DNA of 64,000 bases from Thomasclavelia ramosa DSM 1402 (lineage in GTDB: Bacteria > Bacillota_I > Bacilli_A > Erysipelotrichales > Coprobacillaceae). The notes under the pieces were generated by a model. It searched no databases and was not told the DNA's origin. It was given only the letters and a program-made list of their open reading frames with translations. Position 1 is the stretch's first letter; every line of letters starts with the position of its first letter. The stretch is taken from positions 1,364,001 through 1,428,000 of the forward strand of contig NZ_CP036346.1 in the NCBI RefSeq assembly GCF_014131695.1, written 5' to 3'. This document shows positions 1 through 60,377 of the stretch, in pieces. Made by a program: the position numbers and the translations under genes.

Positions 1-672
1 AACAAACCAAGACAGTAAATCAAAAACCTGTGAAGATAAGAAAAGATGTATGCCTTACCTCGGGAGACCTTGTGGACGATGAAGTCCAGTAAACTGTTAA
101 AAACAGTAATGATACCATCGATAGAAAAAGATTTATCACAAGAAGTCTGATGAAGTCATAGTAGTCAGAAATGATGAAGGACTGAAACGTTTATAGAGTG
201 CAAATCACTATAAGCAATATTTGGATAGTTCGAAAGTAAGGATAGCCTAGAACTGGGAAACGTAATCCTAGATGGTAAAAGTAAAGAGAATTTGAAAATG
301 ACTATCGAAAAGGTCAAACAAAATAAAGGAGTACCTGGAATAGACAAAATGACTGTGCAAGAGGTGGAAGAAGCCAAAGGCAATATATAGAAATCTAATG
401 AAATTAAACAAGGCATGTAAATGTAGATTTAGTGAAGATGACATTTATAAGTGTGCAAACACAAGGTTAGGCTGGTATAGGAGAAGTGGAATGAATATAG
501 TCAATTTTATAATATCGCTAAAAGTTCTAAGCATAAAGAAAGGTGATAGACCAGGTTTAGTCTATCACCTAGATTATTATCTTAAGAGTGATATAAATGT
601 AGAGCCGTATACGAGACATGTACGTACGGTTCAATGGGAGAATAAATTATCAAATTTATTCCTTTACCCTAT
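1..672 (+). mobile_element. Group II intron remnant (5' end outside window)
   Basis: The stretch has the look of a bacterial group II intron RNA. Ribozyme-like sequence in the first 280 bases includes the GAAGTCATAGTAGTCAGAAA and ATGATGAAGGAC type segment. A very short maturase reading frame follows, then a canonical domain V at 602-632 (GAGCCGTAT ... GTACGGTTC). A domain VI-like hairpin follows at 637-667 (GAATAAATT pairing with AATTTATTC), and the 3' end ends near CCCTAT at about 672. The maturase is reduced to N- and C-terminal scraps, so the element cannot mobilise itself. The left boundary lies before base 1. The intron identity rests on domain V and the maturase scraps; the exact 3' end is an estimate. 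Confidence 0.82.
298..590 (+). pseudogene. Group II intron maturase (LtrA-like), internally deleted
   Basis: The first frame (298-390) encodes 30 residues containing KVKQNKGVPGIDKMTV, the conserved N-terminal start of LtrA-type reverse transcriptase/maturases, and then stops. Reading in another frame from about 398 to 590 gives YKCANTRLGWYRRSG followed by GLVYHLDYYL, which resembles the C-terminal maturase/D-region end of the same family. All seven reverse transcriptase blocks, including the YADD active site, are absent. About 1.5 kb of coding sequence has therefore been lost by internal deletion. The reading frame that continues to 691 runs through domain V and is not a real protein. An 11-bp perfect hairpin at 541-570 lies inside the C-terminal scrap. 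Confidence 0.72.
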
Positions 673-23484: not shown

Positions 23485-23619
23485 ATGAAGAATGTAAGGC
23501 AACAAAAAATGATTGCCAGTATCTTATTAGATATTGGACTCGATGACGATATTATTGAGGTAATAACGTCACTAACTAAAGAAGAAATAGAACAAATAAA
23601 TAAAAAAGACTCTTATTAA
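23485..23619 (+). CDS. 44-residue protein upstream of the metK riboswitch
   Basis: A short ORF with a good ribosome binding site (AAGGTGAT, three bases before ATG). Its peptide starts MKNVRQQKMIASILLDIGLD and ends EEIEQINKKDSY. It is acidic and helical, resembling the short HTH-like C-terminal segments (xxIxxVTxLSKEEIxxI) found on many small Firmicutes proteins. Function unknown. The stop codon lies inside the 5' strand of the SAM riboswitch P1 helix, so ribosomes terminating here would overlap the aptamer. Its transcript would therefore be the one that carries the riboswitch, unless a promoter lies within it. Confidence 0.55.
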   Translation: MKNVRQQKMIASILLDIGLDDDIIEVITSLTKEEIEQINKKDSY

Positions 23620-23758
23620 GAACTACTAGATGAAGATCGATGATGTAGTGGCAACCCTATATTAAATTAGAAGGTGCCTAACTGAGCAAGTTTATACTTG
23701 AACAATGAGAGAAGGCTTCCTAACTATGTATGCTTTCTCTTTAGGAAGCTTTTTTATT
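23610..23758 (+). promoter_or_regulatory. SAM-I (S-box) riboswitch with transcription terminator, controlling metK
   Basis: Aptamer 23610-23711. P1 is CTCTTATT with AATGAGAG. P2 carries the kink-turn segment GATCGATGATGTAG. P3 starts GGCAACC and closes with GGTGCC, followed by TAACT. P4 is CAAGT with ACTTG. These are the hallmark S-box blocks. Downstream, GCTTCCTA (23715-23722) pairs with TAGGAAGC (23742-23749) before a T-run, giving the terminator. AGAGAAGGC (23708-23716) can instead pair with GCTTTCTCT (23732-23740) as an antiterminator that breaks P1. Expected logic: SAM binding stabilises P1 and stops transcription before metK. Confidence 0.87.
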
Positions 23759-30345: not shown

Positions 30346-30575
30346 GTATTTGAAAGTCGATGAATAGGACTAGTAGTAATTGACGTTTTTTATAGAGAAT
30401 CAGTGGCTGGTGGAAACTGATAAAACGGGTTATGAACTCACCTAGGAGATGCAGCGGGGAATTAAGTAGTCGTTGTCGTTAACTGCGTTAAAGTTTTGAG
30501 GGCTAGGTCTTTTAGACTTGGAACTAAGGTGGTAACGCGATTAAAAGTCGTCCTTAGATAGGATGATTTTTTTAT
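30346..30575 (+). promoter_or_regulatory. T-box leader for leuS, Leu specifier CTC
   Basis: The leader shows the T-box stem I features (AGAGAATCAGTGGCTGGTGG followed by AAACTGAT). The specifier position is GAACTCA with CTC (Leu) at 30437-30439. The T-box sequence AAGGTGGTAACGCG is at 30526-30539, with UGGU (30530-30533) to pair with the uncharged NCCA end. The terminator TCGTCCT/AGGATGA (30548-30566) before a T-run completes it. Uncharged tRNA-Leu(GAG) should stabilise the antiterminator and switch leuS on. Confidence 0.93.
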
Positions 30576-58648: not shown

Positions 58649-58673
58649 AAAACAAATCATTATGATTTGTTTT
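58649..58673 (-). terminator. Terminator of the NUDIX gene
   Basis: AAAACAAATCA (58649-58659) pairs with TGATTTGTTTT (58663-58673) around a 3-base loop, overlapping the stop codon. Confidence 0.75.
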
Positions 58674-59193
58674 TATTAATATAAGCATGCAAAATTGCAA
58701 TCATTGTTTTAGAATCAAAGATTTCGCCATTAACTACTTTGTGATAAGCGGTATCAATATCCATTTTAATTAATTCAATTACTTCATCTTCATCACACTC
58801 TAAAGGATTTTCGACTTTGTAAACATCATGAGCTTCGTATACATAAAGCCATTCATCACTATAACCAGGAGTTGGTAAAAACTTAGAAATTAAACTTATC
58901 TTTTTAGCACTATAGCCAGTTTCTTCTTCTAATTCTCGTAAAGCGCATATAGCAGTATCTTCATTTAATTCTAATTTACCCGCAGGAATTTCTAAAGTAT
59001 CTACAGCATTAGGATACCGATATTGCTTTACTAATAAAATTTTGTCATCAACAATAGCAAGAACGCCAACTCCGCCGTGGTGTCGAACTACTTCTCGAGT
59101 TGCGAGATTCCCATTTTCACATTCTACTTTGTCTTTATAAACAGTGATAATTTTTCCATCATAGATTATTTCTGATGATATTTTCTTTTCCAT
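58660..59193 (-). CDS. nudF: NUDIX hydrolase, ADP-ribose pyrophosphatase type
   Basis: Protein of 177 residues with a complete Nudix box at residues 72-93 (G72, E78, R86-E87, E90-E91, G93). It is followed by KFLPTPGYSDEWLYVYEAHD, which is typical of ADP-ribose pyrophosphatases. It cleaves ADP-ribose to AMP and ribose 5-phosphate, removing a reactive metabolite. The start at 59193 follows GAGGTGAAAC; a GTG three codons earlier is less likely. A strong promoter and a terminator-like hairpin lie upstream (59219-59345), so expression may be attenuated. Confidence 0.93.
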   Translation of the reverse strand: MEKKISSEIIYDGKIITVYKDKVECENGNLATREVVRHHGGVGVLAIVDDKILLVKQYRYPNAVDTLEIPAGKLELNEDTAICALRELEEETGYSAKKISLISKFLPTPGYSDEWLYVYEAHDVYKVENPLECDEDEVIELIKMDIDTAYHKVVNGEIFDSKTMIAILHAYINKNKS

Positions 59194-59216
59194 TAGTTTC
59201 ACCTCATTAAAAGTAT

Positions 59217-59310
59217 AACAAAAAAAGTATGCGGGGGTGCATACTTTTTTCTATTATTTCACGTAAGGGTGATAATAGGGGGTATGTAAAGCGAAATACT
59301 TCACTTAACA
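59217..59310 (-). ncRNA. Candidate small RNA or attenuated leader upstream of nudF
   Basis: A predicted transcript of about 90 bases, read on the minus strand from a strong promoter (59317-59345). It has three hairpins. AAGUGAA and UUCGCUU pair around GUAU. CUAUUAU and AUAAUAG pair, with an inner AC/GU. The perfect AAAAAAGUAUGC/GCAUACUUUUUU hairpin (59219-59250) has a CCCCC-containing loop and a T-run, i.e. a terminator. It ends 25 bases before the nudF start. I do not recognise the class; it matches no riboswitch that I can name. Confidence 0.5.
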
Positions 59311-59316
59311 AAGTCA

Positions 59317-59345
59317 ATTATAGCATCAGTTTCATAAAATGTAAA
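59317..59345 (-). promoter_or_regulatory. Strong promoter reading toward nudF
   Basis: On the minus strand TTTACA (59340-59345), 17 bases, TATAAT (59317-59322) with TGC before it as extended -10. Confidence 0.78.
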
Positions 59346-59383
59346 GGGTTACAATAAAAGTATTAGGCGTTTTTAGCAAATTT

Positions 59384-59408: not shown

Positions 59409-60377
59409 ATGAAAAAATTAAAAATAACAGAAAATGATGCTAATCAAAGAATTGATAAATATTTAAAAAAGTTACTAGTTAATGCTCCAAATAATTTTAT
59501 ATATAAAATGTTTCGAAAAAAAGATATCAAAGTAAATGGGAAAAAAGTGGATGAAAAATATATTTTATCATTAGATGATGAGGTCGAAATGTTTTTATAT
59601 GATGATAAATTCAAAGAATTTACAGAAACCAAAAGTATCTATGAGGTTAATAAAACGTTTAGTGTTCTTTATGAAGATAAACATGTATTGATTGTTTTTA
59701 AACCAGCAGGGCTTTTAGTTCATGAGGATGCAAATGAAAGCATTAATACTTTAACAAATCAGGTTTTAAGTTATCTTGCTTCAAAAAATGAACTAGATCT
59801 AAGTCGAGAAAATACTTTTATGCCAGGACCAGTTCATCGTTTAGACAGGAATACTAGTGGAATTGTAATTTTTGGTAAAACTTTGGCAGCTTTGCAAAAT
59901 CTCAATGAAATGATAAAGCAACGTCATTGCATTGAAAAAAAATATTTAACGATCTGTCGCGGACAATTGAATCATCAGCGAAATTTACACGGATATATGA
60001 TCAAGTTAGAGAATCAGGCTCAAGTTAAATTAGTAAAGAAAGACTATCCTGGGGCTTTAACGATGGAAACGATTGTTAGGCCGTTAAAATATAATTGTGA
60101 TTATAGTCTTGTTGAGGTTACATTAATAACTGGACGGATGCACCAGATCAGAGTACATTTATCAAGTATTGAACACCCAATTATTGGTGATCGTAAATAT
60201 GGAGATTTTGAACTGAATAAATATATTAAGAAGACTTTTGGTTTAAATAATCAATTGCTGCATGCTTATAAAATAAAATTTGTAAAAACCTTTGGTGTAC
60301 TAAATTATCTTCAAGATAAAGAGATAATTTGCCCTGTGCCGGCTTTGTTTGAAAAAATAGAGAAAAGTTTGTTATAG
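59409..60377 (+). CDS. RluA-family pseudouridine synthase
   Basis: rRNA pseudouridine synthase of 322 residues. An N-terminal S4 RNA-binding domain (QRIDKYLKKLLVNAPNNFI, then DIKVNGKKV) is followed by the RluA catalytic domain. The catalytic Asp is in GPVHRLDRNTSGIVIFGKT. LITGRMHQIRVHLSSIEHP and GDRKYGDF are also conserved. It is RluC/RluD-like; the exact uridine cannot be told. The start at 59409 has AAGGTGAT upstream. Confidence 0.93.
   Translation: MKKLKITENDANQRIDKYLKKLLVNAPNNFIYKMFRKKDIKVNGKKVDEKYILSLDDEVEMFLYDDKFKEFTETKSIYEVNKTFSVLYEDKHVLIVFKPAGLLVHEDANESINTLTNQVLSYLASKNELDLSRENTFMPGPVHRLDRNTSGIVIFGKTLAALQNLNEMIKQRHCIEKKYLTICRGQLNHQRNLHGYMIKLENQAQVKLVKKDYPGALTMETIVRPLKYNCDYSLVEVTLITGRMHQIRVHLSSIEHPIIGDRKYGDFELNKYIKKTFGLNNQLLHAYKIKFVKTFGVLNYLQDKEIICPVPALFEKIEKSLL

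Follow-up and report, generated by a model that had tools for sequence, protein, structure and literature searches.

Several small RNAs (sRNAs) of the Bacillota carry unpaired C-rich segments beside their hairpins as pairing elements, and in AT-rich genomes such segments find G-rich Shine-Dalgarno sites (PMC9410917, PMC5419742). IsrR of Staphylococcus is built of hairpins and a terminator and, of its three C-rich segments, one adjoins the second stem within a linker and the others lie in loops; it pairs with Shine-Dalgarno regions, and aconitase is among its predicted targets (PMC9410917). RoxS/RsaE of Bacillus and Staphylococcus presents C-rich regions to G-rich mRNA sites, acts in central metabolism and has its own terminator (PMC5419742). 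FsrA of Bacillus subtilis has a C-rich motif for Shine-Dalgarno sites and, as discussed in PMC9410917, aconitase as a target. No sRNA of this kind from the Coprobacillaceae was found in the literature searched, and a term search of the main text of three surveys (PMC6429828, PMC11109978, PMC8040213) gave no mention of the locus described here.

The locus lies in a 64,000-nucleotide stretch of Thomasclavelia ramosa DSM 1402 (contig NZ_CP036346.1, positions 1,364,001 to 1,428,000), which is called the window. Between rluA and a nudF-like gene there is a small RNA gene of about 91-95 nt at 59310-59220 on the minus strand, its start being placed 7 nt past the -10 element and its 3' end at the T-tract 59226-59220. 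The features of the locus are as follows.

59409..60377, plus strand: RluA-family pseudouridine synthase (TIGR00005, above cut-off), the divergent neighbor, which usually adjoins the RNA in the family.
59340..59353, minus strand: 14-mer TGTAACCCTTTACA, containing the -35 box TTTACA; consensus TGWAANCCTTTACA in 30/30 aligned homologues.
59317..59325, minus strand: extended -10 TGC-TATAAT of the sRNA promoter, from the promoter scan; TG in 30/30 homologues.
59220..59310, minus strand: small RNA gene; full-length covariance model match of 110.9 bits, fold z -8.3.
59285..59310, minus strand: hairpin P1 (UGU-AAGUGAA...UUCGCUU-ACA); double changes in 4/10 pairs.
59278..59282, minus strand: C-rich segment 1, CCCCC within the linker CAUACCCCC 5' of P2; linker conservation 0.994 in 29 distinct sequences.
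59251..59278, minus strand: hairpin P2 (CUAUUAU-CAC-[CCUUAC]-GUG-AA-AUAAUAG); 5' arm 100% and 3' arm 0.92 conserved.
59271-59265, minus strand: C-rich segment 2, CACCCUU, in the P2 5' arm and loop.
59220..59250, minus strand: hairpin P3, the intrinsic terminator (stem 59251-59220 in the terminator scan); double changes in 9/12 pairs.
59238-59233, minus strand: C-rich segment 3, ACCCCC, in the P3 loop; loop retained while the stem is exchanged (L024, L026, L075).
59212..59220, minus strand: extended -10 TG-T-TATACT (TGTTATACT) of the nudF-like gene itself, its first base being also the final T of the T-tract.
58660..59193, minus strand: NUDIX hydrolase gene (nudF-like; Pfam PF00293), a neighbor outside the mechanism of the RNA.

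The promoter consists of TTTACA (59345-59340), a 17-base spacer ending in TGC, and TATAAT (59322-59317). This is exactly what the preliminary description had reported, and its ranking of the promoter as one of the strongest in the window agrees with a match of 11/12, which places it in the top two sigma-70 matches of the 56-63 kb region. The three hairpins that it saw in about 90 bases are likewise upheld: the predicted fold has an energy of -27.6 kcal/mol, as compared to -8.3 +/- 2.3 for shuffled sequences (MFE z -8.3, 0/200), and the RNA without its terminator has a fold z of -3.9. No convincing reading frame was seen within the RNA. The terminator was said to stand just before the ribosome site of nudF; the stem is indeed followed by AGGTG at 59204-59200 and by the ATG start at 59193, with an additional extended -10 between them that the earlier account did not mention. 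The downstream gene encodes a NUDIX hydrolase, as proposed; the 'nudF' name is approximate, because the ADP-ribose diphosphatase-type NCBIfam models that match it do so below cut-off.

Regions upstream of nudF orthologs were used for a first alignment, which revealed the same RNA across genera, and a covariance model was then built from ten aligned upstream regions. It matched 37 of 43 Coprobacillaceae genomes at E<=0.1, and 31 of those at E<=2.1e-7; carriers include Thomasclavelia, Faecalibacillus, Massilimicrobiota, 'Candidatus Stoquefichus' and Beduini. Each genome has one strong copy at one locus, that of T. ramosa included. The count of 37 includes three weak matches (G044, G055, G056), which are shortened copies at the same rluA-nudF position that still have P1, a linker reading CCCCCUAU and CCCCC in the loop of the terminator; a diverged copy in G015 has kept the promoter and the terminator loop. 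In a sample of the order (294 genomes) the sole match outside the Coprobacillaceae was weak (E 2.3e-4), and a sample of the phylum (392 genomes) gave no match outside the family at 1e-4. A check of viral contigs gave none. The preliminary description had suggested such a covariance search near nudF orthologs and had named lack of conservation there as evidence against the RNA; what the search found was the opposite, conservation throughout the family, of a neighbor rather than a leader. Its statement that the RNA fits no familiar family extends to all of Rfam 15: a scan of the window gave no match at 59.2-59.35 kb, and the best score for the RNA region in a permissive scan was 19.5 bits, the cut-off being 55. 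Elsewhere in the window, a T-box leader (30351-30558, plus strand) and a SAM riboswitch (23610-23711, plus strand) scored above the Rfam gathering score, and a group II intron domain match at 600-672 (plus strand) was borderline (41.2 bits versus a cut-off of 40).

In the alignment of 29 distinct sequences, 95.8% of the cells are paired. Double changes were seen in 14 pairs; shuffles gave 4.2 +/- 1.6 such pairs and slid controls 0-3. The structure guided the alignment, which biases the count in its favor; the slid controls offer the fairer comparison. The covariation support appears in P1 and P3. P2 covaries weakly, with one compensatory change (in G021), and is barely tested in this respect because it is nearly invariant. 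Conservation across genera, together with compensatory changes, shows that the structure goes beyond chance. Conservation peaks in the linker and in the 5' arm of P2 (1.0, versus 0.92 for its 3' arm); in the spacer 5' of P3 it is 0.44. The C-rich segments rank among the most conserved parts of the RNA, and the C runs of the linker and terminator loop are both conserved and unpaired, and persist even in the divergent copies of G044, G055 and G056. Judged by its sequences, this is a genuine small RNA family for which Rfam has no entry, and its functional kind is probably a known one.

Our preferred reading, which we consider probable, is that of a free-standing, trans-acting, Hfq-independent sRNA whose C-rich segments block G-rich Shine-Dalgarno sites, with aconitase as the best-supported target. 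The sequences provide an sRNA promoter and an intrinsic terminator that are not bound to one downstream gene. The sRNA would be made from its own conserved promoter and would end at its own terminator, free of nudF. Three C-rich stretches (the linker CCCCC, CACCCUU of P2 and the CCCCC of the terminator loop) would then be the pairing segments, and their pairing with G-rich Shine-Dalgarno regions, for which Hfq would not be needed, would block the initiation of translation. Hfq was not detected in the T. ramosa genome or in 20 relatives (21 genomes), in a search whose positive controls worked. The presumed targets would be aconitase foremost and, in T. ramosa itself, a glucose-type PTS IIB protein, citrate synthase and the small subunit of glutamate synthase, all with complementary GGGGGT ribosome sites. 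The trigger would be a condition sensed by a putative protein that binds the 14-mer over the -35 box.

In such a mode of action the RNA would most likely share a mechanism with IsrR, RoxS/RsaE and FsrA, but not an ancestry; common ancestry with these RNAs was rejected, as the matches of the model are essentially confined to the Coprobacillaceae and there is no Rfam match. The RNA has no sequence match to IsrR and has different neighbors, and it carries a C run in its terminator loop. The IsrR promoter has a Fur box, and the promoter found here a cre-like 14-mer; IsrR pairs with mRNAs, whereas the targets of the Coprobacillaceae RNA are predicted from sequence. RoxS/RsaE differs in sequence and structure, and FsrA, of unrelated sequence, is tied to FbpA, FbpB, FbpC and Fur. 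In the Actinomycetota, the Rfam family 6C RNA has two C-rich loops followed by a separate terminator. It is likewise small and carries C runs in the loops of hairpins, but it belongs to another phylum, gave no cmscan match, and differs from the Coprobacillaceae RNA, where a C run lies in the terminator loop itself.

Candidate targets were sought among sequences complementary to the C-rich segments. GGGGGT before ATG was about as frequent as a reversed-pattern control, that is, without enrichment. Aconitase, whose gene stands first in a pair with that of isocitrate dehydrogenase, has an atypical, G-rich Shine-Dalgarno sequence that differs among genera (GGGGGTAT, AAGGGTGATAA, AAGGGGGA, AAGGGGTGG) and is mostly complementary to one or other of the C-rich segments. 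Its median duplex energy of -15.3 (26 genomes) was the best of 10 conserved gene families, the other nine having medians of -11.7 or weaker. Outside the genus the values were -13.8 for aconitase and -12.0 for the next family, a small margin for a gene that had been picked from the list of GGGGGT sites, and 0/100 shuffled seed sets did as well. Within one genome aconitase is not outstanding, since 18% of the gene starts in the T. ramosa window reach -15 kcal/mol. Aconitase is thus the best candidate target, modestly above controls. In the promoter region upstream of aconitase (L213-L242; C1:420015 in T. ramosa), TATAATTGTATACAAT or a close variant is conserved throughout the family and is an apparent operator.

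In the one genome covered, that of T. ramosa, other GGGGGT ribosome sites precede citrate synthase and the glutamate synthase small subunit, and also an EFR1 ferredoxin, a branched-chain aminotransferase, trpA, trpD and a RelA/SpoT gene. In this one genome these genes hint at the citrate-to-glutamate and amino-acid branch, and given the aconitase, citrate synthase and glutamate synthase sites, the sRNA probably restrains the citrate-to-glutamate branch. Genes for Fe-S proteins (aconitase, glutamate synthase, a ferredoxin) are found among the sites, and no Fur-like inverted repeat was seen by eye in the sRNA promoter, where the conserved element is TGWAANCCTTTACA; an iron-sparing role is conceivable. 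A search of the T. ramosa genome with the complement of the linker found, besides the RNA gene, one perfect 13-mer, at the ribosome site of a gene for a small glucose-PTS-IIB-like protein, where 13 contiguous base pairs could form. The 14-base site, AATTAATAGGGGGT, is identical in 8/9 genomes of the genus and has one substitution in the other (L159). Other genera lack this complementarity, and PTS IIB was therefore rejected as a family-wide target. D-lactate dehydrogenase was also discarded, its 12-bp complementarity being confined to this species. Upstream of the PTS IIB-like gene (L153-L182; C1:755529 in T. ramosa) a palindrome, TATAGTATACTATA, overlaps the promoter region in nearly all genomes of the family and appears to be a conserved operator.

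That target complementarity is only moderately above controls, and that the linker and the 5' arm of P2 are nearly invariant, beyond what one short seed would need, is what might be expected of an independent sRNA whose C-rich segments serve to bind a protein, or to titrate a different RNA, instead of pairing with mRNA. We regard this as unlikely: unpaired C-rich segments beside hairpins are known mRNA-binding elements in sRNAs of Bacillota (PMC9410917, PMC5419742), and the complementarity to aconitase is retained though its Shine-Dalgarno sequence changes between genera.

The preliminary description had left a choice between an independent small RNA and a leader gating an ADP-ribose pyrophosphatase gene; the former is supported by the RNA's promoter and terminator, by the separate promoter of nudF and by the displacement of nudF, and the latter has not stood up. 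A cis-acting leader or riboswitch would sense ADP-ribose, NAD or a nucleotide and gate nudF through the terminator, as could be suggested by most genomes, where nudF directly follows the RNA and shares its strand, and in the window an apparent antiterminator could form between CAUAC, 5' of the linker, and GUAUG in the stem of the terminator. However, CAUAC is kept while the terminator stem changes (L007, L024, L026), and this pairing hence does not covary. A TATAAT or TATACT, often as TGnTATAAT, follows the terminator in 24/24 loci where nudF is adjacent, and would serve nudF separately. Furthermore, the sRNA and its promoter persist in five genomes without nudF directly downstream. In Beduini (L085) the sRNA and nudF are separated by 4 kb with several genes, in G051 (L073) by 640 bp, and in G052 (L072) and G053 (L077) by transposase-like genes; in G006 (L086) a transposase insertion has cut into P3, leaving the promoter, P1 and the linker. 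The inserted DNA of G006 contains a new hairpin and T-tract (L086, about 2195-2310) that may now terminate the sRNA. Conversely, rluA has been lost from the locus in G019 (L056), where the sRNA and nudF are kept. Among unpaired bases it is C runs that are conserved, and no pocket resembling an aptamer is obvious. Control of nudF by a leader or antiterminator was accordingly rejected as very improbable, and the comparison of loci indicates that the sRNA is a conserved neighbor of nudF. Scarcely credible is a role mainly as transcription boundary, in which a promoter-terminator unit with an inert product would insulate; it would suit the location between divergent rluA and nudF and the strong terminator, but a 27-base near-invariant core, near-identical terminator loops (30 sequences) and survival despite displacement of nudF or rluA would be unexpected for it.

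The bases flanking the 14-mer TGWAANCCTTTACA show little conservation; the 14-mer itself, over the -35 box, is a likely transcription-factor site. It matches the CcpA cre consensus TGWAANCGNTNWCA at 13/14 positions; the central CG of that consensus reads CC in every copy of the sRNA, G being replaced by C, and we therefore claim only a conserved operator-like element. Control by CcpA was not adopted, for the same replacement. The only other exact copy of the 14-mer in the T. ramosa genome lies in a TetR-type palindrome: at G000:C1:962778 (L091), TGTAACCCTTTACA sits within a long palindrome that is flanked by genes for a TetR-type regulator and an FMN oxidoreductase-like protein and is probably the operator of this regulator.

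A wider role is possible but doubtful. The RNA might be a global regulator of the Coprobacillaceae, its three C-rich seeds jointly repressing citrate synthase, aconitase, isocitrate dehydrogenase, glutamate synthase and sugar uptake; such a system would have arisen independently of the aconitase control by RyhB, FsrA and IsrR, with a promoter switch of the carbon type and not the iron type.

Coprobacillaceae are common in the gut, and no Hfq was detected in this family. For post-transcriptional control in these organisms, the RNA gene described here would offer an immediate point of entry, being conserved, sharply bounded, present in single copy and in most genera, and having a named candidate target. 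Confirmation of aconitase would add one more independent instance of an sRNA fixed on this enzyme of the TCA cycle.
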